Below are positions 5,292 through 60,687 of a stretch of DNA of 64,000 bases, one piece after another. The DNA is from Ulota crispa (taxonomy: Eukaryota > Streptophyta > Bryopsida > Orthotrichales > Orthotrichaceae), in the NCBI GenBank assembly GCA_963920765.1, contig OY987246.1:23011167-23075166 (forward strand), in the 5' to 3' direction. The notes under the pieces are model-generated. The model had not been told where the DNA came from, did not search any database, and saw only the letters and a list, made by a program, of their open reading frames with translations. The stretch's first letter is position 1; each line of letters begins with the position of its first letter. The translations under genes and the position numbers were made by a program.

Positions 5292-8200
5292 TTAAATTTC
5301 ATTGTCAAACATTGATATCAACAAACCTGGCTGACCTTGAATTGCTGACAAAGGTTCTTGACGGGGAATTTTCCGCTTTAACCGTTTCACTACCCCATCA
5401 TAAAGCTCCATGACTGCCTCAGGGCATTTTTTTGAGAAGGTGTCGTACCCTTCAAGAGCAGACACGTCATCTATTTCCTTCGCCGCATAGTCAATTACTC
5501 CCTCTTTCACGACATTAGAATTGTTCCTCCATCCAACAACATAAGTAACGAGCACTTTGGTAGGACTAAGAGACTGCAAGATTTCTTGTTCGCAAAGTGA
5601 CTTCAGCGCTCCAACACCATACTTGTCTGCTGCTTGTAGAAGGTCAACCAGGTTGCTCCTGAGAACATATTGATTGACAGTGGCTCTATAAAAAAACAAA
5701 ATAAAAGCATCCAAGGCCGCGTAACCCATTTCCATTTGTAGCGGAGCCCCTTCCACCATGGGCATACTGAACATGGCCTTGAAGACATCCGACTGACTGG
5801 CCTGTTAAGAAAGAAGGCAATTGTCACTTTCAAGAACAAGAGCTGGATTATCATGGCACGTACCACTAAATATATCTTGGTTCCTCGGGACACAAGCGGC
5901 AAACTAAAAAATCAACTATAGAACGAGGCATATATACTAAATGATTCGTGTAAGAATTAAACTTACCAAAACGGCTTTGTGCCCGTAGACCTTGCGACCA
6001 TCTGGAGTCTCGAAGGCAATGTCTGAGTAAGGTGGAGGAAGGTGGTCTGGATCTCCTGATCCATCGAATTCCTTGCCCTGCAATCTCCGCTCAAGTTGAA
6101 CAAGTCTTTCCCTTGTTTTTTCTAATTCTTCAACCAAAACACGGTGCTGTTCATAAGAATCCTTGGAATGGGTGTCTTGTTTACACGTATCACAGCCTAT
6201 AGATTCTTTGTACATAGTTGGCTCGGAACCTTCTGACCCAACATCTTGACAACAAAGATTCGTGCAGAGATCCCGACTGTATGACTGAATTGCCACTGTT
6301 TGAATACTTGTACCTGCGGACTGAAAGAACAGAAAGCAGAAGGATGAAGCTGATTGGATTTCCTTTCGTTCCAAATACTCACATTGAATTATTATAGCTA
6401 GTTCAGAAAAAAAACAATCAACGTTCTAAATAGTGAAGACAGCAATTAAGCATCAGCGACAAGCAACGCTCCGCACATGCCAATGTCTTTCCTTACTGTA
6501 TCAATTAGCCAAAGTTTCAAATTTCCAAAGTCGTAATCGATTTAAAAGTCATAAAGCCTTGTTACAATGCAAAGACGTTACCTGTGGCTTCTTGGACAAC
6601 TCCATTTCTAGCGCTAGAGCTTTCGACCAATCTATAAGTCGTCCCGTTGATTTATCGACCTCCCCTGACACAATCCGCTGCATTGCTCTTTCTCGAATGC
6701 CCTCAAATTCAGGATCGTCTCTATAAATAAGAAAGAAGAAACAATGTCCTATCAAGTTGAATATTGAGGGAATAAGGAGATAGAGTAAAAAAATTGAAAC
6801 ACCAAAGAATAAAAAATTTAACGAAAAGGGGAAAAGGTGCACGTGTCGGCTTTGATTTCAACCTGGCATACGTTCCAGCGACTCTAGGACCTGTTGCAAG
6901 CATGTCTTGATCAATCGGTACTCCTGCGTATTGCAACCTGCATCATCAAGATTCTTAATCAGCTCAAATGAGACATTCGCATAGAGTAAGACCCTGCTGT
7001 ACAGGCATAGATCTTAGAAACCGGTACTTCTAAGCTCTTTACACTAACAATCCATGAATACATAGTATTCCACAAACACCAAAAACATTGATACGTACAA
7101 GGCACGCAGGTATCCTAAGAAAATACCTTCCCAAGCCAGTAGTCCGCCCAGTTTTATTGGTATAGTATTCTCCTCCAAGGCCAGTTTCTTTGGTCATCAT
7201 TCTCAACCAGCTTGCTAGTGTTCTGACTCCCACAGGTGACCGCGTGTACCACTGGAAAAGTGCATTTAGAGAGGTACAAAACAAACCAAGAAAATGAGTG
7301 TTTTATATTCTCTCACGGAAACAGTCATAACGAACCAAACAAACTAGAAATTTACCTACTAGGAGTACAAGTCAAGCAAACAGTACATGATAAGTCTATA
7401 AACGAGTCTGCGTTTTGTCTGCATGCCATCCATTATTGACCAGGGTAAATGGTTTCGAAGAAAGTGAATGGTGGTGTCAGATATTATGACACCATCTCTA
7501 GATATACCATATGGTAGTCATCTTGTACTATGACGTAAAGTGTAGATAAGATCAAGAAATCACCCAGCTTACCACAGTCCTAGAAGTTGGATTTTTTATA
7601 TCTGTAAGAAAAAATGGCCGTGGAGGAGGTTCGTCTTCAGCCCATTTAGGCTTATGTTCTACCATAATTTTGTATGTCGAAACCACGTCTTCAATGTAGC
7701 ATGTCACCGGACGAGGGAATTTCTCGGGTTGGCTTTGCGAACCATCTGCACTCCAACTTTTGGGCCGCTTCTCATAGCTGATCAAAAAACTAACGTCAGA
7801 GATCAAGTCGATTATCAAAGAACCAGAAACTAATAGCACAAAGCATTGAGAAATCACATGAAGGAAGTAGACAACTATGTTCCTGCAGCAACACCAGAGA
7901 GTATGTGCATTGTAAAACGACCAAGTTGAATATCAGAACGACCAAGACTACGTGCTAGATTGAAATAAACGATGACCAAATATCTGTAGGAACAAATTTT
8001 CCTATCTTATGTTACTTGCCCGGATCTTTCGTTGATATAAACATCCAGCAGTATGATCAATATGGTGTTAGAATCGTACCGCAAAAATTCGCCATGTTGG
8101 TCCTTTCCTAATGTTAAGTCCATGTCTGTGAGTTCATGAAGCTCTGCTGGGCCACGGATGAAAAAGTTCCGGGTACAGAAATATGCAAACCGCATGGAGC

Positions 8201-9135
8201 AGCCTTTTGCGGTAGTAGATTTATACGTAGAAAGAGCAAGCATAGCTGCTTCATCGTGCAAGGTTAGGACATCAATGCGCTTGCGTCTCTTTCCTAAACC
8301 AAGCCTACCAGCTGAAGCTACATTGTCGCTCACAGCTTGTCGAGCTTTCTTAAATCTAACATCTGTCATGATATTGAACGGCACTTCAGGCACTTGTGTC
8401 TCAGCGATTCGAGCCTCTTGGTGAGCACGAATGACACGACCCAAGGCCCTGAGGAGACTTCCAATGCTGTTACACAACAACGATGAAGGTAAGATCGTTT
8501 GACATCCTGCGAGTACAACAAACGATCTCACGGACATAAAAGAAGAGGTGAAAGACTACTCACGTTTCAGGAGGATACTCCTTGCCATTTTGTTTACGCA
8601 CTTGAGTGAGGAACAACCCCACGAGCTCTCCTAACTCCTTCATATCACGATCACACAAATCTTCAATGGTTTCTGTAGTGGGTTTCTTGTTCAAAGCTCT
8701 CCAGGAGTCGAACCTAGCACGTGCCCAAGACTCGGCTCGTTTGCTCCTCCTTTCTTCCTGGAGAGCAGTTTGAGTGTCTTCCCCGTTGATGGCATTCGCA
8801 TTTTGATCAAATGACTCGGCCTTACCATTGTCGATTATGTCATCGCCATCCGATTCTTCGCCATCAGAGAGCACATCATCCTCATCCATATGGCCTGAAC
8901 TTTGGATGTTAACGTCAGATACAGTCTCCATAGCCAAAGCATTCTGCTCAGATTCTCCAACGCTTGGCACAAGTTCATGCGCCAAAGTGAGAGAGTGTGG
9001 ATGCTCCAGTGGATCGTACGGAGGCGGATGAACATGCAAACGTTCTGCTTGCTCATCTAGAGGTAGTGGATCGGAATTTGTAAGTGAAAATGGTGTACCA
9101 CCATGAATTGCCAGCTCCCCCATGGAACTAGCCAT
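5292..9135 (-). CDS. Crypton-derived recombinase-like domain fused to BTB (788 aa)
   Basis: Eight exons chain in phase with GT-AG junctions: 9135-8564, 8466-8080, 7777-7573, 7251-7127, 6937-6863, 6720-6582, 6320-5967 and 5801-5292. Residues 1-130 are acidic and probably disordered. Residues about 145-470 match the DUF3504 domain of QRICH1, ZMYM2 and KIAA1958, which derives from Crypton tyrosine recombinases. Landmarks are VRKQNGKEYPPET, LGLGKRRK, IRGPAELHEL, GEFLRYEK, FFLTDIKNPTSRTVWY, SPVGVRTLASWL and TNKTGR. Arg295, Arg424 and Tyr453 sit at recombinase catalytic positions. The usual His of TNHSxR is Lys421, and the His of GHRS is Pro447, so recombination activity is probably lost. A coiled coil (about 555-590) precedes a BTB domain (about 599-700; SDIAFETPDGRKVYGHKAVL) and a helical tail. 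BTB domains dimerise and can recruit CUL3 ligases. A DNA-binding CUL3 adaptor or regulator is inferred. Confidence 0.85.
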
Positions 9136-11418
9136 CTATTAGAACCTTTCAACCTACAACACTTCCACCTGCGCATGTGCACCAAATACAGTACCGATCA
9201 CCAAAAAGTCGATAATCGAATTGACACCTAATAACGAGCAAGCAGAGAATTATGCAGATAAGCCACAAAACTAACAATTCAGCTACTCGGATGCTGTCAG
9301 AATAATATGGCAGACATTATTCGTACCATAATCTCTGGCGAAAAACTAAAGTATGATTTGCGACTCTACGCATGCACTTGCGTGTATCCGTCGTCAAAAG
9401 TCTACGCAATTCACCAAACCGGTCATCTTGGAGTCAAAGCGTCTTTGCATTGCACACTTCAAGCGCATCAGCATAAAGTCGTTTCGACAAGAAACGCTTA
9501 ACAATCCTAAATCGCTCCGTGGCGCCAATTCTTGCACATCTTTCCAAAAAGAACAACCAATCATAGTACACATCTCAAAAAAGGTATCATTACTGCAATC
9601 AACGAGAGGCAATGATACAATGAAGTGGAAGAACAAGAGAACCCTAACATACCCGAACTGAATACAAAGCAAAAGAAAACGACTTTGCATACAGGGAACG
9701 AAAGTGGAAAATCCCGCTTCGAAGTTACGCAAGCATAAATGACTCGAAAACTCCATGGAATCCATTGCGAGGCTTAAACAAGTACAGCAAGAAAAACTGT
9801 CAACAGCCAAAATGTAAATAACAACTCCAAACTAGAATTTTCGCTCCTTGCAACATTCCAAAACGACCTACCAGTATGTTACAGGCAGTGGCACAACCGT
9901 CTGAAGAAAAATCCATCGCCGTTTCGACTTATTAACTTGAAAAAATTGTTAGAAAAGTATCATCAACAATTAACACCCGAGACTTCATAGAGACAACAGT
10001 AATTGCGTTAGGTCTCGGACATGGCTAAACCGATGTATGTTAAGCAAATTGGAGCAAGAAGCATATCTATCGAGGCAGGGAGAATTTTCATCTTCCATTT
10101 CTTTCTGACAATACCTCGCCAAACCGACTGTCCGACAGCGAAACGAAATTAAACAAAAAAAATCATCAATCGTTGCCAGAAATTCCGCAGACAAAAATAA
10201 CGACATCATAGCAAGGACAGCAGTCTTGAACCACATGGCATAACAGACATGTTGTTGCGCACATTGAAGCACGAAGCATATTAATCGAGAAAGAAGGACT
10301 ACGAGAGCAGTTTTCGTTCTCCTGTTAATCCTAACAAGAACTCGCTCGATTAATTCTTTCAAGACCGAAATAAATCATCATCGACTATGAAAGCCGATAT
10401 CTCACAATAACTACATCATCGTAATGGAGATGCCAGAACGATCGTCTCGAACAATATGGCCAAATAGGCATGGTATAGCGCGCATTGGAGGACGAAACAT
10501 ATCGATCGAGAAAGAAGGACTACGGGAGCAGTTTTCATTCTCCTGTTCATCCTAACAAGAACTCGCTCGATTAATTGTTCAAAACGAATCAACACCGAAA
10601 TAAATAATCATCGACTATTAAGGCCGAAAGCTCACAACAACAGCATCATCGTCTCGAACAATATGGCCAAATAGGCATGGTATGGCGCGCATTGGAGCAC
10701 GAAGCATGTAAATGTAGAGAGTAGAGGCAGAGGAGCAAAATCGAGGCACACGAAAACGACGCAAAAATTAATTGAGAGAAGCTTATCAATCACGACACGG
10801 AATTTTTTATCCTCGCTCAAGACAAAGTAGTTTTAATCCAAACCAGACGAAACAAAACCAAAGAAACGGATCGGCATAAATCGAAGCCTGCGATTTCGAA
10901 GAGAAAGGAGAGGAAATGAGACAAGGAGGCCGGTGTCGAACAACATGGCCAAACAGGCATGTTACGGCGCGCATTGCAGCACGAAGCATATCGATCTAGA
11001 GAGAAGAGGCAGGGAAGCAAAATTGCGGCAACAGAAACGGACGCAAATATGAATTAAGAGAAGCTTATCAATCACGACACGGAATTTTTTTATTCCTAAT
11101 AAGACTTTGCTCGAAACAAAGTAGTTTTAAGCCAAACAAGACGAAAGGAAACCAAAGAAACGGATCGGCAACTATCAACGCCTGCGATTTCGGAGAGAAA
11201 GCAAAGGACACGAGCAAAGGAGGCCGGTCTCGAACAACATGGCCGAGAACAACATGGCCAAACAGGCATGTTACGGCGCGCATTGCAGCACGAAGCATAT
11301 CGATCGAGAGAGAAGAGGCAGGGGAGCAAAATTGCGGCAACAAAAAAGGACGCAGACGTGCTGTTTTGTCGCGAAGGCGTAATGAACAATCCGAAGACAA
11401 AACGCAACAAAACGTACC
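9136..11418 (-). other. Probable leader intron of the Crypton-BTB gene
   Basis: On the minus strand a good donor (CAAG then GTACGT) lies at 11418/11417, downstream of a GC-rich block. AG acceptors lie a few bases upstream of the ATG at 9135. A 5' UTR intron of about 2.2 kb is therefore likely. Open frames in it on either strand are discontinuous and match nothing known. Confidence 0.45.
10010..11340. repeat. Degenerate tandem array, units about 200-310 bp
   Basis: A block with the core ATGGCCAAAYAGGCATG, then GCGCGCATTG, then CACGAAGCATATCGAT recurs at about 10450, 10660, 10940 and 11250, with more diverged copies near 10230 and 10030. Copies are separated by related spacers (AAGAAGGACTACGGGAGCAG; CGCTCGATTAATT). 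The spacing varies, so this is an irregular tandem duplication rather than a satellite. It lies inside the inferred leader intron of the Crypton-BTB gene, where it could carry regulatory elements. Confidence 0.75.
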
Positions 11419-16083: not shown

Positions 16084-19000
16084 AACCATGTTACAATGTG
16101 GTTCATTGAAGAAAGAAGCATGGGAGGCTTTGAGGAAAGCAGTGATGTATCATCGTGGCAAGCCTATTGGCACTATTGCTGCAACAACTCTAGATCCACT
16201 CGAAGATGCTCTCAATTACAATCAGGTTATAATAGAAATTTGTCACGTAATCATTAAAAAAAAATGGTTTTGCTTACCGAAAGCACAAATCATATTATTC
16301 TAATAAAACATCAAGAACTCACTGTTTTTAAACTGCGCGTTGTTGTAAAAGAACTGGTTTCAAAACTAGCATTGCATCGAGAAACAGCAAAGTTTATAGT
16401 TTGGGTTCAAGAACTTTGGAACTAGTCTAAATCTTGTTAAACATCTTCAAAAATAAAATTTTGTTTATGTTTAAAGTTGTCAAGGTGGTACATTTATTTA
16501 CTTATGGACTAGTCATACAATTATGAACTTTTCGTGTCTTTGAACAATCGTGAAAAATTCTTGAATGTTTGGCATAAGCTTTTTCCTAGGTTTTGCAAAT
16601 ATCTCTCAATGTTTTACAAACTAAATGAACGAGAGGATTACTACTTCTGGACTTTGGATAGTTTTTGTTTAGTTAAATGGTACATGCAAGCATTCGATTT
16701 GGAAAAATGTTGACAACGTGTTGTCCAAACTCTGTGATTTTCAGGTGTTTATGAGAGACTTTTTCTCCTCTGGGATTGCATTTTTAATAGCTGGAGAACC
16801 GGAAATGGTAAAGAATTTCCTCCTGATGGCTGTTCAACTACAAGGAAATGAAAAGCAAGTAGATTGCTTTACTTTGGGTGAAGGTGTCATGCCTGCTAGT
16901 TTCAAGGTGCTTAAAATTTGGATTTTTTTTTCACATTACATCAAATGTACATTATTTGCAAAGTAACTTTAAAGTTTCCTAACGCTTTCTTTATGCCATA
17001 TACAACTAAAAAAAACATTGAACACTCCAGAATAAGTATCCAATTTAGATCTTTGTGAAGAAACATGTAAAATCCCTATAAGAGAAAAGTGTCCTAAACA
17101 ATTGGTTCACAACAACTATAAACATCCCAATCAATTGTAAATGTCATGAACAACTATATAATGACTCAATTACACTTGTTGAAGACATTTGCAATTGTTT
17201 AGGACCACTTATTTAGTGCACATTTTTTAAGTAAATATAAGAAGATCTCCTATTGAATTGCATAGAAAAATCCAAAAAGTTCAAAACTAAGTTACATGAA
17301 TAGTGCATAATTAAATTAATCTAACATTGTAAAGTTTGATTAATTTTGCTAATTTTTGAGCAGGTAACAGTAGATTTAAAAACTAAACAAGAAACAATTG
17401 AAGCTGATTTTGGTGAAGCAGCCATTGCAAGAGTTGCTCCAGTGGATTCAGGATTTTGGTGGATTGTTTTGCTTCGAGCATATACACATTCTACCGGAGA
17501 CCATTTAGTGGCAGATAGTCCACAATGTCAATTGGGAATCATCCGGTGCTTGAATCTGTGCCTCAAAGATGGCTTTGACACATTTCCAACTCTTCTTTGT
17601 GCAGATGGATGTTCTATGATTGATCGGCGCATGGTATGTCACAAAACCATGCCATTATTCAACTAAATCTAAACTATTCATGCAATTCTAGACTATGTTT
17701 GCAAACTATCAAGAAAACCTCTCATGTTGAAGAGGGAAATAGATCTCCCAATGTTTTGCATTAAAACTTTTCAATGTCTTCTCTATATTATATACAAAGC
17801 ATTGGAATATCTCTTTATGTTTGCATATATCTCCAACATTTTGTTATTCTTATTATTTATGGACTTTGGATTCTCTCAATATAGTTAAATATGACATATA
17901 TAATTGTGATTAAGAACAATTTAAAGCAATTGTGATTTTCTCTTTATCTAACACATTATTATTAAAATCTCATTGTTAGTGTTTCCACTTAGCATTCTAA
18001 AAACAATTACACATGTTGACAAATAAAACATCAAGATTTAGCTTATGTATCTATAGTGGTAAAAGACACCACAAGCCTCTACGCTAATACTGTGAATGCG
18101 AGCGTGGCAAGTTTTACTACTAGTAGTAGAACAACAGTAGTGCCAATATCATGTTAATTCTCTCAAAAAACTTGTAAAATAAAAGATGCCAAATATTTAG
18201 AGGCGGGATATGAGGGCTTTGGGAAATAATTATTTAAGCTTGAGATACAATTGTCAATGAGAGCAAGCCTAGCCATGTTTTGAATTCAAGCATATAACTA
18301 CCAATCTAGCATTGTTGGCATAGAGAGCAACTTTGTAAATAAACATCAAATGCTTTCTATTTCATTTTCATTTTTTTGCCTAGGTGTGTAAACATTAACC
18401 AGTTTTTTTTAAAGTACATGGTGCGGTATGTCCTTGTGTTCTAAGGGGCAATTCACACTACATCCCACATCTCATCTCTCCAAGTCCCACCTTAATGTGA
18501 GATTCCATATTGTTAAAAAGGAATAATGAAGAAAGTTATGAATGTTTTATGCAAAAAAAAAGGTGGGACATGGTTGAAATTTGGGTTTAGAAAAACGGTC
18601 AATTTAAACTTTAAGTGAAGTCTCACCGTTTTTGGTGCTAAGACTTCCAAAAAGTGTTCCCAAGTGAAAAAATACAATAAATCCACACACAAAACATGGA
18701 ACTTATTGTGAAATGCCAAGTCCCAACTTTTGGCATATTCTCAGATTTTAGAGGGACGTAGGACTTAGGACATAGTGTGAAGCACCCCTAAAATGCTCAG
18801 AATGCTAAACCGTAAGTAAGGAGCCATGAACCATGAATTGTGAGTCATGAGCCTAGATTTTTTGTCAAAATATTAAATTTCACCAATAATAGTGTACACA
18901 AGGCCCTCTAATTGTGCATTCTAAACTTTTGTCTCTTGAAAAATTACTATTTTTTTGTTTCTCCATTAATTTTGAGCTCAAAATTGATTCCCGCTCACAA

Positions 19001-21266
19001 AATCTTAGCTCATCATTCATAATTTCACCATTTTTACGCTCACAACACAGCGTCGTCCCCTAAAATGCAATGCAATGGCACTTAGTGGGGGATAGGGGGG
19101 GGTTGATGGATGGTGTTTGTAGGGCATATACGGGTACCCTCTTGACATCCAATCCCTCTTCTACATGGCACTCCGATGTGGCAAAGAGTTGTTGAGACGA
19201 GAAGGGGATGTGGTGGAGTTTGTAGACCGCATTGACAAACGTTTACATGCCTTAACATTCCACATGCGCCAATACTTTTGGCTGGACCACAAACAACTGA
19301 ACAACATCTACCGTTACAAGACGGAGGAGTACTCGTTCACGGCCCAGAATAAGTTCAACATCATGCCGGACTCTCTGCCTGATTGGGTGTTCGATTTCTT
19401 GCCGAACAAAGGAGGGTATATGGTGGGCAATGTGTCCCCGGCGTTCATGGACTTCCGGTGGTTCACCATTGGTAACTTCTTGGCCATCACTTCGTCTTTG
19501 GCCACCCCTCAACAATCTCAAGCCATCATGGACTTGGTGGAAGCTCGTTGGGATGAGCTCATTGGCGAAATGCCTGTCAAGTGTGCCTACCCTGCTTTGG
19601 AAGGGGAGGAGTGGCGCATTATCACTGGGTGTGACCCCAAAAATACCAGGTGGAGTTATCACAATGGTGGCTCTTGGCCTGGTAAGGAACCATTTCATCA
19701 ATCCCTTAACCCTTTAACGACTGTGGTCGATTCTGGGGTAAGCAATCTTTTGTATGGCCATTTGGGGGAAATTTTAAAACTATTGAATACAGATGTTTAT
19801 CACAGATCTGACCATACAAATGGAAGTATCTTGCAAGTTTACTGTTATGCATCATGCATTATGCTCATTTAGCTGTTATGGTCATCTTTTTGCTTTTATT
19901 AGTATATTTTCAGTTGGTACTCTTTCAATTTTTTCAACCCTCTTGCCACATGTCACCTTAGATTGGCCTAATTATTGTCCTAAACTCTTCACTTTCCAAT
20001 TTCCCAAACCCATCCCCTTTGCCACTTCATTAAATTCCTTGACATGCTCTCTCTACAAACTGAAAAGAGTCAAAATCGACTAGGAACTGGTCAGCCAGAC
20101 GTTAATGGTTTAAATGAGGCTAGTTGTTTGTTAGTCACATTGAGATCTCCTCAATTGTGTGTCTTCCCATTGCATGCTTGATATTGTCAAAAAGCTCTCG
20201 GCAAGGAGGGGTGCACAGGCTTGGTTTTGTGTCATTTGGGCCTACGATGGGAAAGTTATTGAATTTGGAAGTTTTTTATAGATTGAAAATTTAGAAAATT
20301 ACCTTTATTTTTATTTTGGTGGCATTCTTGGTACTAATGGAAAGCTCTTACCAAGGAGGAAAAAGAAAAGCATGATTAAATCAGGATGAAAATTGGGCCA
20401 ATGGCACAGGGCCACACTTGTACTACTAAAATCACAATAACCTATGTAATATCACATTTATAGAAGTTGTGATATTATAGAAAACTAGGAAATAGTTGTT
20501 GAAGTTGAGGTGGTATTAAAGAGGGTGCATGAAGTGATATTAAGGAGGAGGTTGTAGTTTTAACGCTTCTTCTTGATTCACACTTTTTTATTTTTAAAAT
20601 TTTGTGGTTTTAAGGAGCTTCGGACTTCCATAATTTCACTCTTCTAGTGCTCTTACCAAATAATTTGAAACATAAATTGTGACATAAATTGTAATGGTGA
20701 ATGCATAGTGTACCAAGCGTCAACCACTAGTCATACTACTAAAATCATAGTGACTTGTAAAGTCACATTTTACCTCTGTAATATCATATTTTCACTCTTT
20801 GTAATATCATCTCTTAGATATGATTTGAAGATTTACTAAAAAAATTACTTTGCAATCTATTTAAACATATGAATATTCTAATAAAATTCCAATGGTGAAT
20901 TTGTAACATAGCAAGCACCAACCCCTACTTTGATACTAAAATTTGTTCATGTTGAAATGTGCAGTGTTTTTATGGTTCTTGACGGCTGCATCAATAAAAG
21001 CTGGGAGACCTGCAATTGCACGGAGAGCTATTGAACTTGCTGAAAGGAGGCTTTATCAAGATGATTGGCCGGAGTACTACGATGGCAAACTGGGGCGGAC
21101 CATTGGAAAACAAGCACGAAAGCTGCAAACTTGGTCGATTTCTGGGTATTTGGTATCAAAGCTGTTGATGGACGATCCTTCACAAGTGAATATGCTTTGT
21201 ATGGACGAAGATAAGCGGTGTCGAGTGAACCCACTGGCAAGATCATCTTCATATGGAGGAGGGTAA
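16084..21266 (+). CDS. Alkaline/neutral invertase (GH100), cytosolic type
   Basis: The enzyme hydrolyses sucrose to glucose and fructose at neutral pH. Exons, all GT-AG and in phase, are 16084-16225, 16745-16906, 17364-17633, 19123-19681 and 20965-21266 (stop TAA). Family blocks appear in order: [163 protein letters not shown] and QTWSISGYL. The Asp of VDSGFWW and the Glu of GEEW lie in the motifs expected to hold the catalytic pair. The first in-frame ATG (16088) gives 476 residues, about 75-85 fewer than plant relatives, and lacks only the variable N-terminus. An AG acceptor at 16082-16083 suggests an unseen upstream exon. The block LQGNEKQVD replaces the usual LQxWEKxVD, losing a conserved Trp. 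No organelle transit peptide is visible. Confidence 0.9.
17074..17218. mobile_element. CACTA-like MITE in invertase intron 2
   Basis: This is an inverted-repeat element of about 145 bp. The left side holds GTGTCCTAAACAATTGGTTC; the right side ends AATTGTTTAGGACCACTTAT then TTAGTG, close to its reverse complement. The outer bases (CCCTATAAGAG on the left, the complement of CACTAAATAAG on the right) resemble a degraded CACTA terminus. No target-site duplication is clear. It lies between coding exons 2 and 3 and is presumably spliced out. Confidence 0.55.
18442..18791. mobile_element. MITE of the TTCACACTA family in invertase intron 3
   Basis: The ends are TAAGGGGCAATTCACACTA on the left and the reverse complement of TTAGGGGTGCTTCACACTA on the right. 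The same terminal pattern bounds 22836-23182, and the interior is shared with 46920-48142. It is about 350 bp and non-coding, with probable TA flanks. Confidence 0.7.
18792..19050. repeat. Dispersed repeat, inverted copy at 23320-23550
   Basis: The block containing GAGCCTAGATTTTTTGTCAA, AATTTCACC, AAGGCCCTCTAATTGTGCAT and AATTTTGAGCTCAAAATTGA reappears in reverse orientation at about 23320-23550. The motif TTTTGAGCTCAAAAT is itself palindromic. Termini were not resolved, so the class is unknown. It lies in the last part of invertase intron 3. Confidence 0.6.
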
Positions 21267-30983: not shown

Positions 30984-33678
30984 TCAGTGCCTCTGGTTCT
31001 GAGCTTTGCCAAGCACAAAATAGAACAGCACTCGGTATACTACTCCAAACATTATAGTGATGGCCAGATTGGTCCACTTGCCTAACTGCGTGATATCTTG
31101 GTTTTTGAGGACGGCCATGCCATCTGTGATACAGGTCGAGCCATCCAACGTCGAGAAGGGCGTACTGGACAGTGCTGCATCAGCCTTCAGAGTGTCAAGC
31201 ACTTCAGCCACAAGCGCCTCCGAAATGTATGGTGCAAGAGGAGTGTTTGTGAATATTTGACCTGCACTAATAAGGCAGAGCAACCATTAGTTAGTATATT
31301 ATTAACCCCTAAAGGATGTTGATGTATTGTATATGCTCTTTTGTGTTGTAGATGGATGTGGTATTTGAGTAGCACATGAATTTCATTGGAGCTATAAATT
31401 TTAAGCCAAGTCACATACATATTATCGGCTAATCAGGATTGTTTAGATTTTTTTGGACATTTGTCATAAATCCATTTCTTCAAGTACTAAATGGTCCTTG
31501 TATGAATACAACCAACACTTTTGGTAGGCAACATCCATTAGGGGTTAAAGCACATTAACATCATCAAAGCAAAGCAAATTAATATCACATTGTATCCATG
31601 ATCTTCTGGGAGCTGCATATATGCATCTGAATTAACTTACCTGCGGTTTCGTAGCACGCGGTTGCACTTGACCTCATGAGCTCGTTGCGAACGACAGCTT
31701 CGTACGGATACTTGATTAATGACAAGTAGTGAAACCATATCCAGTAATTCGGAATTCTGTCTCTGGTTCTGAAGAAGCCGCTCAAAAGAAGAAAGTACGC
31801 TAGGACAGCAACGACAATGGTGTAACCCAAGATGACGTTCGGAATGATGGCTGACAGGAATGTAGCAAATGAGTTCCCAGCCCAAAAAGAGGCCCAGATA
31901 ATGAGAAAAAAGAAGCAGAACCCACTGAATCCGCCAGCGAGACCAACGGCCCAGAAAGTGGTCACTGCAAATGCCAAGGACAACAATCCCAGAAAAGGAA
32001 TGTAGATCAAAGAATTGGCAAGCACGTACGACGATTTGCGGTATGCGTTGTGAGCCGTCTCTCGGATGAAGATGTAGCGCTCCTGAAGGAAGATGGGCAG
32101 AGTGTCGACGCAGGAGTAATAGCAGAACGTCATGGCGAAAGTGAAGAATCCGAGTCGCTCCTGGAGTCCCTTCGGGGTATGATCCAGCTGCCAGAAAATG
32201 GTTGCCAAGAGGATCCCTGAGATGGTGACGGTGCCCAACCTTGTGTAGAAAAGCTCCGGAGTTCTGCGGATGTTCGTGACACATCTCCATGTGAGGCAGT
32301 TGATCTCTTCCCTTCGAGTGTTGGCAAATTTGAGCACCAGCGTGGTGCTGTCATTGCAATGGTCGACATAGCCAGATGTTGCCATCATCGATCTTCCCTT
32401 CATAGCAATGCTGGCTGCTATTGCACCCGCCACTCCCGTGGGTGTGGCAGGATCATGACGACGCTTGATCACTTGCACAGCTGCACTCGACGTCACCTTG
32501 TACCAACTCACAAGTGGCCGAATGCCATCCGGCATGGAGTTGAGAATCTGAATTAGGTCAATGGCGAACTCGGCCGCGTTCCCATATGAGGAGGGAATGG
32601 AGTACCCATGGTTGAATGCGGTGAAATACGATGTGAGATCCCTGGGGTGACCCATGTAGATCATCTGGCCGTTTGCGAGAATGAGCAAATTATCTATAAG
32701 ACCCAAGATTCGGTCGCTAGGCTGATGCACAGAAAAGATCACAATACTGCCCATCTCTGCTGCGATGCTTTTGAGCGTGTCGACGACCATGAAGGCGCTG
32801 GAAGAGTCCAGACCTGATGTGGGTTCGTCCAGAAACAAAAGCAAAGGACCGTGGACTATGTCAATTCCGATCGACACTCGGCGTCTCTCACCTCCTGAGA
32901 CTCCGCGGTGTGACTCATCTCCGATGATGGTGTTTGCAACTTTGCTTAATCCCAGCTGCCGAATCATGTTGTTGACCCTCTCCACCTTGGCTTCCTTCCC
33001 ATGACTGCTTGCCGGGAGCCGCACGCTGGCTGCAAACATTAGGGTTTCCCGCACTGTCAGCATGGGAAACAGCAGATCGTCTTGCATAACATACGCTGAT
33101 ATGTTTCGGAGTAACGCCGGATCCACTTCTTGCCCATTCAATGTGATGCTTCCCTTTATACTCTTTCTGTCAATTCTTTGAGCTAATGCGTCTATCAACG
33201 TCGACTTCCCTGACCCGCTGGGCCCCATCACGGCCAGAATCTCCCCATCCTTGGCCTTGCCAGAAATGTCCTTCAACAAATTGTTCGTCACTACAGATCC
33301 TCTAGCAATCTCTTCATCGCCATTATTCCCACATACCCATTTCAAAAAAAACCCACCCCATTCGAATTTCGTCTTACTGATGACGGTATACGTCAAGTCA
33401 CGAAACTCAAGCCAGATGTCCAGGTCAATAACCTCAGATGTCGTGGTCGATTCTTGGGTACTGGTGACCTCTTTAATTAGGGTTGGAACAATCTTAACAC
33501 TAGTACTATTATCATTACTACCGTTCTGCCCAGGCTTGACGACTCTGACGTTCCGTGCAACAGGCTCCTTGGGCAGCTTGTTGCAACGAAAACTGCTAGT
33601 TATTATCTCTTCTTCTTGAGTCTTATGCAGAGGCAATGCGAGATCGCCATGATGTCTTCCTGCAGACAAACTCGTCAT
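30984..33678 (-). CDS. ABCG half-size transporter (WBC type, 771 aa)
   Basis: There are two coding exons, 33678-31641 and 31261-30984, joined in phase. The start is the ATG at 33678-33676; the frame is open a little further upstream but without another ATG. The order is ATPase first, then membrane domain, as in ABCG proteins. Landmarks are Walker A GPSGSGKST (152-160), Q-loop VMQDDLLFPMLTVRETLMFA, signature VSGGERRRVSIGIDIVHGP (about 260), Walker B LLLFLDEPTSGLD (about 280) and the H-loop FSVHQPS. Hydrophobic helices follow (YIPFLGLLSLAFAVTTFWAV, VILGYTIVVAVLAYFLLLSG), then YWIWFHYLSLIKYPYEAV. The last helix is in exon 2. The sequence groups with Arabidopsis ABCG1/2/6/16/20, which export lipid or suberin/pollen-wall precursors. 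The substrate here is inferred only. Half-transporters work as dimers at the plasma membrane. Confidence 0.93.
31307..31544. mobile_element. TTAA-flanked MITE in the ABCG intron
   Basis: This 238-bp element has left end CCCCTAAAGGATGTTGATG, right end CAACATCCATTAGGGG and exact TTAA flanks at 31303-31306 and 31545-31548. It is the shortest clear member of the CCCCTAAAGG family in the window. It makes up most of the 379-bp intron between the two ABCG coding exons. Confidence 0.85.
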
Positions 33679-34194
33679 AATAATATCATTATGCAAGAAT
33701 TCATAGTGGCCAATGCCTGCACTTAGCTCACGAATGGTACCCAGGTGAGTGGAAGGATCGGAAACAATGAATTGCTGGTATGATCACAGATTTGAATCAG
33801 GTGAATTGTAAGTCCTTTCTGAAAGTATACTTGAATACTAATAGCACGACGTCGGAGAGACAATTAACTACGTAATCAGCTCTTGCTCTGTTCGGTATTA
33901 TGAGGTGTTTAGAGAGCCTTTTCACAGTCCAGATTCCAGAATAATCCTCCCAATTTTGCCCTAATCGCCGAGATAGCGATCGGAGAGAGAGAGCAGAAAG
34001 CACCGGTGCGAGGGAGCGAGGGTGCGAGACCAGAACGAGAAGAGCAACATGCATGCAGAAGCGGAGCAAGCGTGGACGACGACGAGGGAGAAACAAAATG
34101 CCAAAACCCTAAATGGGGCTACGACCACTGGTCGTAGGAAGAATACCTGGCACAACGTAATCAGTCCGTTGGGAGGAGCGTTGGTTGCTAGATA
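33679..34194 (-). promoter_or_regulatory. 5' UTR and promoter region of ABCG
   Basis: Near 33.95-34.1 kb the sequence is less AT-rich and includes a GAGAGAGAG tract (CTCTCTC on the coding strand), common in plant 5' leaders. An AG at about 33717 could end a leader intron. No protein in this stretch is convincing. Confidence 0.4.
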
Positions 34195-36870: not shown

Positions 36871-37635
36871 CATGGTTGTTACATTGGGCCGCCTGTACGC
36901 CCAAAGTGTCCAATTGAGGTCACGGTCTGTCCAGTGAAGTCAACTCATAGTTAACTTTAAAAAATGGTCCAAAACGAAAAAAATAAAATAAAATAAAATT
37001 ACTTTGTACATGCTAGTGACACTCATTGTTGCCAACATGAAGTCAAAACGTGGATTCAAAGCCATATCATGTAATAAAAATGAGAATTTATAATTTGATT
37101 ATTCCATTTTTAGGTCAAAAACCCTAAAAATGTCCTAATCCGCCCATATGGTTTGATTTGTCCGCCCGTTTGTGCTGTCCAACAACCTCAACTTGCTTGA
37201 AGTAACAACCTTGAATGTAGCAATGAACCTGTCATTGAGATTCTTCAAATATACTCAACATTGAGACAACCATCAACTTTGGTCATTTATTCAACATCTT
37301 TGGCTATGACACATCTTTATATCATTAGGCTCCCTCTACCAAATTGTATTATTACTTCAAATTTTTGATCTATTAAATCACTTGTTCTTCGTTATCTCCA
37401 AATCCACTTGCATCTATTGAAGCCTAGTTAATTGATTTTTTTCTCATTATTCTAAATTACTTGCTCATAATTTTCAACCATCCAATCTTCGTGATTATTT
37501 GCAAACTCATATTAGAGTGTTTTTATGGCAGTCTTATAATTAAGGCTTTTTTATTTTGTTTTAAACCACTATAAAAGACTTTTATAATTCACATCTCACA
37601 ATATTTGAATGGGTGTCTACAATTCCATTTATCGT
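36871..37635. other. Flank of the Tc1 fossil
   Basis: This stretch may contain more of the old transposon (upstream transposase sequence on the minus strand), but nothing further is recognisable. It holds a short AAATAAAATAAAATAAAAT run near 36985. Confidence 0.4.
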
Positions 37636-37639
37636 TTAA

Positions 37640-38559
37640 CCCCTAAAGAATCATGGCCTTTATTTTGTCAAAAGACACTCAAAATTGTCACTTTTATGGC
37701 AAAGAGTAAAAAAGTATAAAGATTGGTCTTTTTGCATATCTAACCGTAGGATCTTGTATTAGACTTGTATAAGAATGTGTCATTCAAAACTTAAAAACTT
37801 TGACCACATAGACCACAAGATATTTGCGTTTAAAGTGTAAAAAACAAGCTTTCTTACACCTTGTACGATTAGATTATTTGACTTTGAACTTTTTTAACTT
37901 AAAATTTTTGCACGGTGGAGTTTTGAGGTTTATTTTTTATGGTGGGGAATTGAGTTGAGAATCTTTTGAAAAAAACCAAAACAAAAAATGCTTAATTTTC
38001 ATTCTTAAAAAAAACATTAAATAGAAGAAGGTTTGAGATTGAACAAAATCTTATATTGTTTACAACCTTGCAATGGAATTGAATCATAAAAATCCCAATG
38101 GTGAGATTGCTCTAGCAAGCAATCTTCACCCTTTTCATTTTTCTTTTTGCAAAAATGTTAAATTTGCATTTGAAAATGAAGTTTATAAGTTATTTTTTCA
38201 AAGCAAAACCACACCTACCCGCAAACTAAAACTTCTCATAACTTTCATCTCATCTATCAGAATTAAATGATTCAAAGTTCTCCATGTCTATCTAAGTCTA
38301 AAGAACCTATTTCAGATTTTTTTTTGAAAAAAATGAAAAACTTGAAGAAACTTTTGGCTGCCCAAGGAGCAGCATTTTCTAGATTTTCATGCATAACTTC
38401 TTCTATAAATGTCGGAATGAAGAAAAAATTACATTCCCACATAGATCTTTGAATCCTCACCTTCAACAAAACTATCAGAAAATCACGCAAATTAGTTTAG
38501 CCATAGGTACATGCCCAAAATCCCATTTGTCTCCCGAAGGGACAATGGTCCTTTAGGGG
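37640..38559. mobile_element. TTAA-flanked element A1 (920 bp)
   Basis: The left end is CCCCTAAAGAATCATGGCC, the right end GACAATGGTCCTTTAGGGG, with TTAA on both sides (37636-37639, 38560-38563). It is nearly collinear with 60688-61606 over its left two-thirds, including CTTTATTTTGTCAAAAGACA and TTCATTCTTAAAAAAAACAT. There is no transposase frame, so it is non-autonomous. TTAA duplication with CCC...GGG ends is the piggyBac-type pattern; Kolobok and Sola3 also target TTAA. Confidence 0.85.
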
Positions 38560-38563
38560 TTAA

Positions 38564-39461
38564 GGACCACACCTATTTTCACAAAATCCACTAAAAATAA
38601 GGGTTGTAAGTTTAGATGTGCAATTGACTCAAATATGGACCCATTTTCAATAATCCAACCATACAAATGGGAATTACACCTTGTTCACTTTAAAGCACCA
38701 AAATTTTAGCTAGATCTACTATTGGAGGTGAAACATTATAATGATTGAGCAAGTCGTATGCGAAAAATCTTTAGTGTTTCATGCTTGTGTGGTTTTGAAT
38801 AATACCGCTTCATGCAAGCTTTTATTGAAGAGAGCCTCATATTTCTAAAAAGCAGGGTTTCCCACCTTTCCAACAAGACTAGTTCACACAAAATAGACAA
38901 AAATAGCAATCACAAGGTGTAGCTAAGTGGACAAAAAGGGTCAAAAATCCCATTTTCTTTGCTACTCTAAAACAATTCTACAAGAAATTTGATAATTGTT
39001 ATGGAAAATCCGATCGGTGAAAGCAATCAAAAATTGGCCTTAAATGTAGGATGACATATTTTAAAACCAAAATGACAACACCATTTTAGTAGATTTTCAA
39101 ATACTACAATTATGCTACTACCATATAGGAAAATAATACAAGCATATTTCTTAAGCAATTTGAATTTTTTTAGAATTGTGCAATTGAAATTTGACATTCT
39201 TCTTGGATGTTTGATGTATTGTGTTGTTGCTTTGATCCATCTTTGACAAAAAATGGATACATATTTTGAAGCCATGCCATATAAACATCATTATTTGTCA
39301 ACTCACATACCTGATTGCATTGTTACTTTTTTAGATGGATGCAAAATTCTTGTGGTCACATGCGTTCTTCAAGACCAAATTCCAAAGTATTGAGCGATTT
39401 CAACCTACATGCCAAAAACCACTCCCAAAGACCAAAATATGGTTGCGTGGTCCTTAAAGGG
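38564..39461. mobile_element. TTAA-flanked element B1 (about 898 bp)
   Basis: The right end GGTCCTTAAAGGG is followed by TTAA at 39462-39465. The left end GGACCACACC starts directly after the TTAA that closes element A1. A related full copy (59288-60194) shows that the family end is CCCTTTAAxGACC, so the outermost bases are missing here. It is nearly identical to 50571-51457. The minus-strand frame 39275-39027 (82 codons) is conserved in all three copies. Confidence 0.85.
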
Positions 39462-39465
39462 TTAA

Positions 39466-49105: not shown

Positions 49106-50570
49106 TTAACCTAGAATATTGAAAGAATGAATCTTGGGATGTTACGAAGTTTGGTTGGGCAATTGCAATGTTATAAGGCTCCTATATTGAATACTTTCAT
49201 GTAGATACTACTGTTGAATTGTCTTTGACCCCTAAAATTCTTTTGTGTTTACATGGTCAAATGGTTCAAAATTGACCTCTCTCAATAGAATGATTAATAA
49301 TCAAAAATTGATTTTTTTCAATAATTTAACCTTAAGATCTATTTTTTCACTTGCTTGTGTACATCCTCTCAAAAATTCAAATTTTGTGAGGACATATTTC
49401 ATTAGAATAACACTCAAAGTAGGGGCAAAACTTTTTTTGAAGTTTCTCTAAGGTGTCAATTTTTTTTTGGTCATTCAAAATGATATCTTTCACTTTATGA
49501 TTTTCTTGTGCAATTTCAAAATGATATCTTTCACTTTATGATTTTCTTGTGCAATTTGAATTTCTTGTAGAGCATGAAGTTGGCTATATGCCTCACAAAT
49601 TCATGATCACCCAATGCTTAAGACATAATGAAAAAAATTGGAAGCAGGAATTGCTTTGTTCAAATTGTCATTACACTAAGAAAACTTCATAGAAGAGATT
49701 CTTATATAAATAAATCTCAATTACAAAATCCGTATGGTGTAAACCTATAACATCATGTGGAGTACTTGCCAAAGTAATTTTTTTCTAAAAATAAAAAGTA
49801 AAACATAAGTTATTACATAGTCAAGGAGAGTTGACTGCAAATATTGTCCATTGACCAAGCCATTGGAAAATGTTTTTGAAAACTATTTGTGCAACACCCT
49901 TCCTCAGTCCCTTTGTTTCTAAATTTTTGTGAGGATGCCCATATTGACATCTAAATCACATATGGTACCATATCTCACTCAAAAATTATTCAATTCGAGC
50001 TTTTTTTTTTTTTTTTGGAGATATGCATGCTTTTTAATATGAGCACATACTACCTTATTTTCACAATCTTATCTTATGTATTTACTTAGGAAATGCTTGC
50101 CCTAATATCCCAAAAGCCCAAAGTGGGCTCCTTGGTCTGCAAGCTGATTTGCACAAAATTTGGATCAGTGGTTACAAAGTTATGTCTAGTTTGGTCATAT
50201 ATGTCTCAACAAATTGAGTTGCGCCTTTTCTTTTTTTTTTTTTTTGCTTATTTTTTCTTCTTGAGTTTGTTTTATAAATTATCAACTAGATTTTATAACA
50301 CATTTACAATTTGCACAAGTTTTGAGACAAATATTTGGTACTATAAACTTTTGAAAGATAAACCATGTGCTTGACTATAGATTTGTAACGCCTGTGAATA
50401 AAAATTTCCAAGTTATACAGTATTGATATCTCACCGTCAATAGTATTTTCTACATATGAAATTTTGAGTGGAGGTTATTCAAAGATTTGATCGAATGATG
50501 TAAGGATTAAATTTAAAACTAAAAAGGGTTTTTCTTTTGCTCCACAAGCTGTGCAGATTAGACCACACCC
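49106..50570. other. AT-rich DNA, no gene recognised
   Basis: The only clear structure is a perfect 41-bp tandem duplication (listed separately) and long T runs near 50000 and 50230. A lone TTGACCCCTAAAATTC at about 49228 may be a broken end of the TTAA element family. Confidence 0.45.
49474..49555. repeat. Perfect 41-bp tandem duplication
   Basis: The unit TTCAAAATGATATCTTTCAC, then TTTATGATTTTCTTGTGCAAT, is present twice with no mismatch visible, which suggests a recent local duplication. Confidence 0.9.
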
Positions 50571-51457
50571 ATTTTCACAAAATCCGCTAAAAACAGAGGC
50601 TGTAAGCTTAGATGTGCAATTAACTCAAATATGGACCCATTTTCAATAATCCAACCATACAAATGGGAATTACACCTTGTTCACTTTAAAGCACCAAAAT
50701 TTTAGCTAAATCTACTATTGGAGGTGAAACATTATAATGATTGAGCAAGTCGTATGCGAAAAATCTTTAGTGTTTCATGCTTGTGTGGTTTTGAATAATA
50801 CCGCTTCATGCAAGCTTTTATTGAAGAGAGCCTCATATTTCTAAAAAGCAGGGTTTCCCACCTTTCCAACAAGACTAGTTCACACAAAATAGACAAAAAT
50901 AGCAATCACAAGGTGTAGCTAAGTGGACAAAAAGGGTCAAAAATCCCATTTTCTTTGCTACTCTAAAACAATTCTACAAGAAATTTGATAATTGTTATGG
51001 AAAATCCGATCGATGAAAGCAATCAAAAATTGGCCTTAAATGTAGGATGACATATTTTAAAACCAAAATGACAACACCATTTTAGTAGATTTTCAAATAC
51101 TACAATTATGCTACTACCATATAGGAAAATAATACAAGCATATTTCTTAAGCAATTTGAATTTTTTTAGAATTGTGCAATTGAAATTTGACATTCTTCTT
51201 GGATGTTTGATGTATTGTGTTGTTGCTTTGATCCATCTTTGACAAAAAATGGATACATATTTTGAAGCCATGCCATATAAACATCATTATTTGTCAACTC
51301 ACATACTTGATTGCATTGTTACTTTTTTAGATGGATGCAAAATTCTTGTGGTCACATGCGTTCTTCAAGACCAAATTCCAAAGTATTGAGCAATTTCAAC
51401 CTACATGCCAAAAACCACTCCTAGTCACCGAAATATGGTCACGTGGTCCTTAAAAGG
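50571..51457. mobile_element. TTAA element B2, near-identical to B1
   Basis: It runs from GACCACACCCATTTTC to GTGGTCCTTAAAAGG, followed by TTAA at 51458-51461. It matches B1 (38564-39461) with only scattered differences, mostly near the two ends. The 82-codon minus-strand frame (51271-51023) encodes exactly the same peptide as in B1. The left terminal bases and TTAA are missing, as in B1. Confidence 0.85.
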
Positions 51458-51461
51458 TTAA

Positions 51462-52199: not shown

Positions 52200-52790
52200 A
52201 AAAGGAAGAAGGATTAGTGCGAAGGGAGGAGGATTAGTGAGTAGGATGGAGGATTAGTGAAAGAGGTCGGTAAATTAGTGAAGAGGGAGGACGATTAGTA
52301 AGGGGGGTGGAGTAGTAGAGAAGAGGGAGGAGGATTAGTGAAGAGGCTGTTAGATTAGAGAGGAGGATGAGGATTAGTGTGTAGGATGGAGGACTGGTGT
52401 GTAAGCTGGAGGATTAGAGAGGAGGGAGGACGATTAGTGAAGAGGATATTGGATTAAGCTTAGTGAAGAGGGAGGAGGATTAGTGAGTCGGATGGAAAAT
52501 TAGTGCAAAGGCCGGTAAATTAGTGAGGAGGGAGGAGTATTAGTGAAGAAGCCGGCAAATTAGTGAAGAAGCCGGCAAATTAGTGAAGAAGCCGGCAAAT
52601 TAGTGAAGAAGCCGGCAAATTAGTGACGAAGGCCGGTAAATTAGTGAGGAGGGAGGACTACTAGTAAGTAGAATGGAGGATTCGAGAGGAGGAAGGAGGA
52701 TTAGTGAGGAAAGAGGAGGATTAGTGAGGAATGAGGAGGATTAGTGAGGAATGAGGAGGATTAGTGAGTATTATGGATGATTAGTGAAAC
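52200..52790. repeat. Minisatellite (GGAGGATTAGTGARGAG-like, about 20 bp)
   Basis: This is roughly 30 degenerate units of GGAGGATTAGTGAAGAGGGA or GCCGGTAAATTAGTGAAGAG. A perfect run of four 20-bp units, TAGTGAAGAAGCCGGCAAAT, lies at 52541-52620. The array ends about 350 bp upstream of the start codon of the TIGR01589 gene, so it lies in or next to its promoter. Confidence 0.95.
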
Positions 52791-53134: not shown

Positions 53135-56100
53135 ATGGCTGGGGTCACGGATGACACCAGCAACAGTGTGCCACCCTCGGGCCAGCACGGGAATCACATC
53201 AACAATCAGGAGCCCGAGGACAAGAAACCCGAGGGTATCGTCGCTCAGCAGCAGCAACAACAACAACAACAAAACAACAACAACAGCAACAACGCAAAGG
53301 TGCGTGCAGATTTCGGTGTTTTTTAGGGTTGGTTAAATCTTTAGGACCGGTCGCGGTAGTCTTAGTCGCGAACTTCTGCGGAATTCGAAGGTTGCAGGGG
53401 TTAGGGTTTGCAGTTGAAGAGCATTTTTTTGGTGTCTTGATTCTCAGTAATTTTGGATTTATAGATCGCAACGTCGCAAGGGCAATCCACCGCGTCATCT
53501 CCGCCACAGTCGCAACAGCAAGTCTTGGACCAGAAACCACAGATACATTCTCCACAACAGCAGCAGCAGCAACAACAACAACAGCAACAACAGCAGCAAC
53601 AGCAACAGCAACAAAATCAGCAGCAACCGCAGCCGCAGCAACAGGCAACCACCAAGTCTGTTGCTCCGAGCAATCCTGGAGCAGTTCCTAATAATGAAGG
53701 GAGGAAAATATCGTGTGAAGATATACAATTGGTAAGACACCGCTCATTTAACTCCTTTTTTTTTTGAGTTGCTTTCTACGCTGTGCACTACATCCGCAAT
53801 TTGGTGAATCTTACAACCTTTTTGAAGTACCTGATTTATAAAGAAGGGAGAAAACCGAGGCAGTTGCTCATATTTGAATTCTGCAATTGGGAAGAAGTGA
53901 TGTTCTTCTTGAATGAGGCTGTCTCCGGTTTGTGGCAATATTTTAAGCATAGTTTTCGCTCGGAGTTGACCTTAAAAACTGTGCAAATGCAACTTAGCAG
54001 TCGTTCACTAGAGTTGCTTTTTTGTGGACGGTCATGGCTCGGGATTAGTAAGAGCTTATTTTTGTTGAGAACGGATATACTTGTTGTTTCAGGTCCAGAA
54101 TTTGATAGAGCGGTGCCTTCAATTATATATGAATCAAAGCGAGGTTATTACCACGTTGCAATATCAAGCGAAGATTGAACCAGGCTTCACTAGTCTTGGT
54201 AAGCATTTTTCCTCACTTGTGCTTGTCCGTTTGTTGCTTTACGGTGTTTGTTTGTAATTAGGTCGGTCCTTACAGGTGTTATCTGATTCTTGTAATCAAA
54301 TTTCTGGAGCAATTAATTGCCCTTTTTTCACCACAGAGATTTTTTCAGTGTTGAGTTATGTCAAATTTATGGCCGATATTTTGTGCCTTTTTGAATTGGT
54401 GATGCAGTATGGCAAAAGCTAGAGGAACAAAATCCAGAGTTTTTCAAAGCTTACTATACTAGACTGAAGCTCAAGAAGCAGATTGTGCTGTTCAACCACC
54501 TACTGGAGCAGCAAGTGCAGCTGATGCACAAGATGCGCCTTATTACGAAGACTCCGCTTCCTATGCAGAATGGTTTGCATCCTGCTCCAAGTACGCTTTC
54601 AAAGTCCTTGTTAGAAACATGCGGGGTCAATACTTGCCCTCTAGGCTTCACATGGCTAGATTCCGGTGTAGATGTCTCTGTGCTGGCCACTTTGCCCGAG
54701 CGCTCTTCTGATATTTGGTTCGAAAGTATAACCTTAGATGCAACCTTTCTTATTATTTTGATGTCGTTGTACACATGCTTAGGTGTAAGTCTTGTTTCAT
54801 GTGATGCAAAAAAAATTTTTTTTAATGATCCTGTGGACCTCGCTTTACCAATTTCACCTTATGCTGTGAGTATGATGAAGCTGTGTTCTTAAATTTTTTT
54901 GTCACTTATCATTCTCCTTGATGGAGTGCAGTGCATCACACTCCAATGGGATATCCAATGCAAACACCAACAGCTGGTGTTGCACCTGGTCATCCGCATA
55001 TGCAACCCATGGCTATGCCTCCACCAAATTCTCCGCTGATGAATGGTAGTCCGGCTATGCCTGACAGTTATCATTCTCATGAGAATGATGGGACAAAGTA
55101 AGTGCACAACATATTTCATGCTATCATCGGTTCATATTAGTACATGTTTTGTGTCTTGTCCTTCACCTAGTTTAAGCTTTATTAATCTTGTCATAATATG
55201 ATTTTGGTTGGTGGTTGCAGTGGCTTGGGGGATATGTCACTAGGCACTGCTTCGTCTGGTGGAAGTGATATTTCATTAGGCTCAATGGGATCTACTCCAG
55301 GAGGCATGGCTGGGGGCTCATTTCCATTTGGGAATATGGGCCCAACGGACATGTCTGGCATGGGCATGGGTTTACCAACCTCCATGGGCATGGATGGTGC
55401 GTATGCCTCCAATGATGCGCACAACCAAAATGGCATTGGGGGTCTTCCTATGAGTTCCCATGACACGGATGTCAGCAGTCACAGAGAATCGCTTGGTTCT
55501 CTAGGGCAGCTCCCTCGGAACTTTAGTCTCTCGGATTTGACAGCAGAGCTCACAAATAGTGCAGGTCAGTATTATTATTCTAGACCCGTCATGTGCGTTG
55601 GAGAGAGTACTGTCATTCTAGTCGTCGTTTAGTTTTGATATTTATCATACATTTTAAAGGTAATAATATGTCTCTCAAGAAAAAAATCTCTTCAAATATA
55701 TCGCAGATTTTCTTGGGCAACTGTGCGTGTAAAGTATAGAGTTTTCAGATGATTGATAACTGAGCACTTAAGTTCGTAATTGCATTTTAGTTGTTTCCTC
55801 GCAGTTTGTGTTGTTTAGACGTTTGCAACTGTTTTGTGTCAGGTGATATAGATTTGGGACCCTTGGGAAGCTACTCTGGATCGCCATTCCTAACACCTGA
55901 TGCATTTTTGCGGTCACCTGACAAAGATGTTCTTGGTAAGTACCGCTCTCAAATTTCTCCTTTTTTAATAATATCATTTTAACAATATACTATCCTAATT
56001 TTAGACTTGATCTTTGTGTATCAGTGCAGTTTTATGAGATTAAAGAGTGATAGTCTTGTGCGTTGTTTTTGGTATTTCAACTGGGAATATTTTTGGTTTG

Positions 56101-56189
56101 TTTCATGGTATTAACTCAGAGTTTGACTGATTTTTTCCTGCTCAACAGATGACATTGACTTCGGTGATTTGAAGACAGAGTCCATGTAA
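53135..56189 (+). CDS. Plant-specific TIGR01589-domain protein (454 aa)
   Basis: Eight GT-AG exons chain in phase: 53135-53299, 53465-53731, 54093-54198, 54408-54590, 54932-55097, 55221-55564, 55843-55935 and 56149-56189 (stop TAA). The N-terminus is low complexity: Gln/Asn runs in exon 1 and a long Gln tract with mixed CAG/CAA codons in exon 2. The conserved domain starts at about residue 138 and spans exons 2-4 (KISCEDIQL, VQNLIERCLQLYMNQSEV, LQYQAKIEPGFTSLVWQKLE, NPEFFKAYYTRLKLKKQI, FNHLLEQQ), a helical plant-specific module of unknown biochemical role. The C-terminal half is rich in Met, Gly, Pro and Ser (GMGMGLPTSMGMDG) and ends with acidic DDIDFGDLKTESM. The composition suggests a nuclear, possibly transcription-linked protein; that is inference. 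No frame breaks are seen. Confidence 0.92.
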
Positions 56190-59283: not shown

Positions 59284-59287
59284 TTAA

Positions 59288-60681: not shown

Positions 60682-60687
60682 TTTTAA

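Follow-up and report, generated by a model that had tools for sequence, protein, structure and literature searches.

A gene of Ulota crispa that probably joins a DUF3504/QRICH1-like region to an SPOP-like BTB domain

We analysed a gene lying within a 64,000-nucleotide stretch of DNA from Ulota crispa (Bryopsida, Orthotrichaceae; GenBank assembly GCA_963920765.1, contig OY987246.1, positions 23,011,167 to 23,075,166 of the forward strand), a stretch that is here called the window and in which all positions are counted. The gene is on the minus strand and runs from an ATG at 9135 to a stop codon ending at 5292, with eight GT-AG exons that join into one open frame of 788 residues, and the C-terminal half of the encoded protein is homologous to BTB domains. 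A DUF3504/QRICH1-like region lies upstream of the BTB domain, and the fusion of the two in one gene is probably real. The DUF3504 likeness appears to be real but remote, and homology to DUF3504/QRICH1 is supported but not proven. We consider it fairly probable that this is a host gene carrying, fused ahead of an SPOP-like BTB-BACK module, a tyrosine-recombinase domain of the Crypton/DUF3504 kind that is catalytically dead. An earlier note on the same DNA had proposed a DUF3504 domain, a coiled coil and a BTB domain in a single gene of a plant-type genome, with an architecture like that of KCTD1.

The gene structure given in that note, with eight exons and one frame of exactly 788 residues, was reproduced with GT-AG borders from ATG to stop, and an in-frame stop just before the ATG excludes a start codon farther upstream within exon 1. 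Splicing is ambiguous, as 7440 open-frame models could be enumerated from the splice sites. The best five of these 7440 models by splice-site score were four tied models of 779-785 residues and a fifth of 804 residues, in which intron 2 also differed. All five used an acceptor for exon 2 at 8448 instead of 8466, giving six residues fewer, and they varied at the donor of exon 3 (7573 or 7564, the latter adding three residues) as well as at the donor of exon 5 (6863 or 6872, the latter dropping the Tyr of the sequence TGPRVAGTY). The 788-residue model was absent from the best five; its acceptor at 8466 was chosen by eye and reproduces the protein length given earlier, and the sequence alone cannot choose between these splice options.

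Among 3000 first-order Markov sequences derived from the joined coding sequence none was open (mean 38 stops, minimum 19), although the splice sites had been selected for an open frame, which makes the control a lenient one. When codon usage was scored against a training set of 837 codons from the neutral invertase and transporter genes of this window, the proposed frame ranked first among the sense frames in seven of the eight exons. The exception was exon 7, where the proposed frame scored 0.033 versus 0.037 for another sense frame and one antisense frame was also marginally higher, and exon 3 had a score near zero, with one antisense frame level or a trace above. The G+C content of all seven introns, which are T-rich, was 0.32-0.42, versus 0.44-0.51 for all eight exons.

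Two genes, one DUF3504-like and one encoding the BTB protein, might have been merged by the splicing proposed in the earlier note. No homology bridges the exon 6/7 junction, and read-through from exon 6 without splicing is halted by a stop roughly 11 codons inside intron 6 (end of the open reading frame, ORF, at 6549), so that on paper the gene could end earlier. However, intron 6 (6321-6581), which separates the recombinase-like and BTB halves, has just 261 bases, in which a gene end and a new promoter would fit only tightly. It has in addition a fair donor (CAG|GTAACG), a pyrimidine-rich acceptor (CTGTTCTTTCAG) and an intron-like composition with 36% G+C and 38% T. We regard two separate genes as very unlikely.

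The BTB match is secure, with PF00651 found at E 9.6e-15 and 55.2 bits versus a curated cut-off of 20.5. SPOP was the closest solved structure (E 3e-10, phmmer against PDB), in an alignment that extends through the BACK region, and nine of the ten PDB matches at E up to 0.001 were to SPOP, with the remaining one to KEAP1. The sequence MVE (residues 634-636, 5751-5759) is aligned opposite MEE of SPOP, and the hydrophobic-x-Glu motif at this place is what we take to be the CUL3-contacting site of SPOP. Directly before the BTB domain, residues 563-583 (6075-6137) form a 21-residue heptad pattern, as found by a simple count and not by a coiled-coil predictor; the BTB domain proposed earlier is borne out, and the heptad pattern is compatible with the coiled coil proposed before it. 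The BTB domain of KCTD1 belongs to the channel-tetramerization class (PF02214). With Pfam at E up to 1, the whole Ulota protein matched neither a KCTD-type tetramerization model nor a MATH domain or a MYM zinc finger. Arabidopsis BTB proteins of the At4g08455 type presumably share a Cys-containing stretch, a coiled coil, the BTB domain and a similar C-terminal tail, while being without the recombinase-like half.

Two Pfam models matched the recombinase-like half. DUF3504 (PF12012) was found at E 2e-4 with the whole protein (21.9 bits), 1e-4 with residues 129-501 (22.9 bits) and 2.8e-5 with residues 254-471 (24.7 bits), with an alignment covering most of the model (positions 30-160 of 162), and QRICH1 (PF25561) was found at E 0.008 with the whole protein, 0.004 and 5.7e-4 with shorter stretches and 0.018 with exon 1 alone. 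A shorter query lowers the E-value for identical matched residues, and the whole-protein values are therefore the sober ones. The DUF3504 match needs splicing, as it was lost without exon 4 and was not obtained from exon 2 alone or from residues 192-388 (exons 2-3); a match given only by the spliced exons 2-4 supports the joining of these exons, yet the signal is thin. DUF3504 was matched by none of four shuffles of residues 254-471, a stretch downstream of the QRICH1 match, and none of 20 other ORFs of the window (out of 238 having at least 60 residues) matched PF12012 or PF25561 at limits of 0.01 and 0.05. Before about residue 150 of exon 1 Pfam gave no match. Searches of PHROGs and NCBIfam returned no match at all. 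In animal QRICH1/ZMYM proteins the QRICH1 model is followed by the DUF3504 model, and finding both models of this animal family, in the order expected, is in our judgement better evidence than either model by itself.

Several results weigh against a recombinase origin of this half, or against parts of the reading built upon it. The PF12012 scores of 21.9-24.7 bits lie below the curated cut-off of 29.7 despite significant E-values, and PF25561 stays under its curated cut-off of 30.8 bits; the DUF3504 domain of the earlier note thus stands as a significant similarity, but it falls short of the curated threshold even at its best score. The integrase models of Pfam and PHROGs were not matched by the recombinase-like half, nor was any PDB recombinase chain matched by sequence, the sole match there being a laccase (E 0.8 and 0.27) that was taken as chance. 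An 88-residue stretch expected to carry the second catalytic box had no Pfam match whatsoever, and a structure predicted from exon 2 by itself gave no information (mean predicted local distance difference test, pLDDT, 40.2; predicted template modelling score, pTM, 0.24). The N-terminal stretch also weakly matched the transposase-derived model THAP9_C at a chance level of E 0.099; neither this match nor that to PF24570 (0.072) in the BACK-like region carries weight alone, because one of the four shuffles scored E 0.069 against an unrelated phage model. Furthermore, the candidate CUL3 motif is short.

These results could be understood if the protein were an ordinary plant BTB-BACK protein serving as a CUL3 adaptor whose substrate domain is novel, having a lineage-specific N-terminal half that resembles DUF3504 by chance, as the unmet cut-offs, the lack of recombinase matches in PDB or PHROGs and the dependence on exon 4 would allow. 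Two models that are neighbours in the animal QRICH1/ZMYM proteins were nevertheless matched in the right order, at E 2.8e-5 and 5.7e-4, while the shuffles failed to match DUF3504, and we find such a chance resemblance unlikely.

The assignment of catalytic residues, made by eye against a recombinase consensus, belongs among the points on the opposing side. Read in this manner, Arg 295 (in RGPAEL) is the first arginine of the R-H-R-Y tetrad, TNKTGR (7144-7161, exon 4) is the HxxR box with Lys 421 replacing His and Arg 424 kept, and TGPRVAGTY (6868-6894, exon 5) is the TGH...Y box with Pro 447 replacing His and Tyr 453 at a shortened spacing. If this by-eye reading is right, both His positions have been lost and the protein would not be an active recombinase. 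A nuclear location is suggested by one basic stretch, KRRKR (residues 250-254, 8277-8291, exon 2); to be held against this, stretches of the type K-K/R-x-K/R number four in the protein, with KRRKR being one of these.

Catalytic motifs that appear damaged, as judged by eye, would also be expected of a decayed and functionless Crypton element that had been joined to an adjacent BTB gene on paper only. Land plants are among the groups of a survey from 2015 which, in the part accessible to us, names Crypton as one of the transposon superfamilies present in every group (PMC4438587), and Cryptons are described as relatively rare in eukaryotes in the accessible portion of another paper (PMC11630846). 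The 788-residue model, however, has neither stop nor frameshift and its splice signals are usable, and a translated search of the 64-kb window gave no second copy of the gene, returning its own exons plus a pair of matches with E-values of 3.1 and 5.9. A decayed element is in our view extremely unlikely.

As to the origin of the domain, DUF3504 was derived from Crypton recombinases and the genes named as carrying it are animal genes in those parts of the paper by Kojima and Jurka (2011, PMC3212892) that were available. In the same parts, the table of Crypton elements covers fungi, animals and stramenopiles, with Chlamydomonas appearing in a tree legend, and either DNA or protein binding is named as a possible function of DUF3504 in general. 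Neither a DUF3504 gene of plants nor a fusion of DUF3504 with BTB besides KCTD1 turned up in our literature search, which left most subscription journals outside, and such genes may already have entries in protein databases. Alternatively, there may have been no domestication in plants; the N-terminal half would then stem from a DUF3504 family that is either old or was acquired horizontally, that also occurs in algae, animals or other protists and that gained the BTB domain later. The matched models bear animal gene names, and a domain broken by introns, unlike the KCTD1 domain described as single-exon in the available part of PMC3212892, suits an old gene; most exons, on the other hand, score in codon usage like the neighbouring genes. 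We judge such an old or horizontal origin to be quite unlikely.

Returning to the host gene with a dead recombinase domain, the recombinase-like half would recognise a partner in the nucleus, which could be DNA or a chromatin protein, and the coiled coil together with the BTB domain would form a dimer. The BTB-BACK part may then dock on CUL3, whereby a target held by the N-terminal half would become ubiquitinated, or, as an alternative outcome, a repressor may be assembled at the target. The protein would most likely be a CUL3 adaptor or a BTB-organised repressor with the dead recombinase domain as its target holder. A more specific proposal is that a Crypton-type recombinase was domesticated independently in plants to give a sequence- or chromatin-specific targeting domain. 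With the CUL3 adaptor to which it is fused, this domain would make a ubiquitin ligase receptor addressed to particular loci, and vertebrate KCTD1 would be a parallel case with another BTB class. We regard this full proposal as rather doubtful, although it has some chance of being right, and an independent domestication reaching the architecture of KCTD1 is possible, with the BTB class differing.

Table 1. Exons and domain matches of the Ulota crispa gene; coordinates are positions in the window.
Feature	Coordinates	Strand	Remarks
Exon 1	8564..9135	-	Acidic N-terminus, then start of QRICH1-like region
Exon 2	8080..8466	-	End of QRICH1-like region, KRRKR stretch, start of DUF3504-like region
Exon 3	7573..7777	-	Middle of DUF3504-like region
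Exon 4	7127..7251	-	End of Pfam DUF3504 match, and TNKTGR motif
Exon 5	6863..6937	-	TGPRVAGTY
Exon 6	6582..6720	-	C-terminal extension of recombinase-like half
Exon 7	5967..6320	-	Cys-containing linker, short coiled-coil-like stretch, start of BTB
Exon 8	5292..5801	-	Remainder of BTB, MVE motif, BACK-like region, stop
QRICH1 (PF25561), residues 151-196	8451..8685	-	Pfam, across exon 1/2 junction
DUF3504 (PF12012), residues 286-407	7195..8183	-	Pfam, across exons 2-4
BTB/POZ domain (PF00651), residues 599-696	5571..6029	-	Pfam, across exon 7/8 junction
BACK-like region, residues 718-752	5403..5507	-	PF24570 E 0.072, under cut-off; SPOP alignment passes through

Relatives were also sought in other sequence collections. 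Viral contigs gave 4 pattern matches with the exon 2 query and 61 with residues 129-501, and prokaryote genome contigs gave 21 with residues 254-471, in neither case with a relative among them, and tblastn against phage records gave no match. These negatives say little, because relatives of a plant gene are not expected in such collections and because the contig scans require short exact peptides.

The plant-type genome of the earlier note agrees with the neighbouring genes. These include a neutral/alkaline invertase (GH100) gene with several exons on the plus strand (16673-21263), an ORF of 732 residues for an ABC transporter on the minus strand (31588-33783), with ABC_tran followed by ABC2_membrane in the order of a half-transporter, and a gene that contains the plant domain A_thal_3526 as well as Gln repeats coded by CAG/CAA runs (53135-56189, with ends read by eye). 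Together these other genes of the window very likely indicate a land plant or a close relative. The window gave no tRNA, and no Rfam family reached its gathering threshold.

Upstream of the gene start there is a tandem repeat with a 282-base unit in 2.4 copies (10651-11354) and also a pair of 136-base direct repeats (10223-10579), and the G+C content across 8-12 kb is about 0.44-0.45, higher than in most of the window. That the tandem repeat might be a coding part of a transposon was considered and rejected, as two ORFs in it and one closer to the gene had no Pfam match. Elsewhere in the window, a dispersed repeat family with direct and inverted copies (37635-39465, 50561-51461 and 59284-61609, with pieces about 76-97% alike) may represent transposon remains. 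There are also two minisatellites, one at 52202-52768 having 28 copies of a 20-base unit and lying upstream of the A_thal_3526 gene, a few hundred bases away, and one at 62985-63310 having units of 16/33 bases.

The DUF3504 genes listed in the available part of PMC3212892 are animal. A plant DUF3504 gene, if true, would mean either that Crypton domestication had a wider range or that the family is older than thought. It would also add another streptophyte route, beside ALOG (PMC3537659, as far as its accessible part tells), from a tyrosine recombinase to a host gene. The fusion to an SPOP-like BTB domain moreover gives a testable idea for dead recombinase domains, namely that they hold a target while a partner domain acts on it. 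The gene is relevant to the study of transposon-derived genes.

KCTD1 isoform b of vertebrates has an N-terminal Crypton-derived DUF3504 and a C-terminal BTB/POZ domain, the former gained by an insertion upstream of KCTD1 and lying within a single exon, according to the available part of PMC3212892. The likeness to KCTD1 that had been claimed holds with regard to the order of a recombinase-like region followed by BTB, but not for the class of the BTB domain, which in the Ulota gene is PF00651 and SPOP-like with the tetramerization model unmatched in Pfam, nor for the DUF3504 match, which spans the three exons 2-4 instead of one. With QRICH1, ZMYM2-4 and WOC of bilaterian animals the gene shares a QRICH1 model followed by a DUF3504 model, both under cut-off in the Ulota gene, and it differs in having a BTB domain, in having no MYM zinc finger matched in the Pfam search and in having an Arg, as read by eye, in the TNKTGR motif. 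SPOP and the plant BPM proteins are similar with regard to the BTB domain and BACK-like region, with MVE opposite MEE of SPOP, whereas the Ulota gene has the recombinase-like half in the position of their MATH domain. Finally, the ALOG genes (LSH1/G1) of streptophytes are likewise plant host genes for which a tyrosine recombinase was recruited (Iyer and Aravind 2012, PMC3537659, accessible part), while the Ulota gene differs from these in matching the QRICH1 and DUF3504 models and in carrying a BTB domain.

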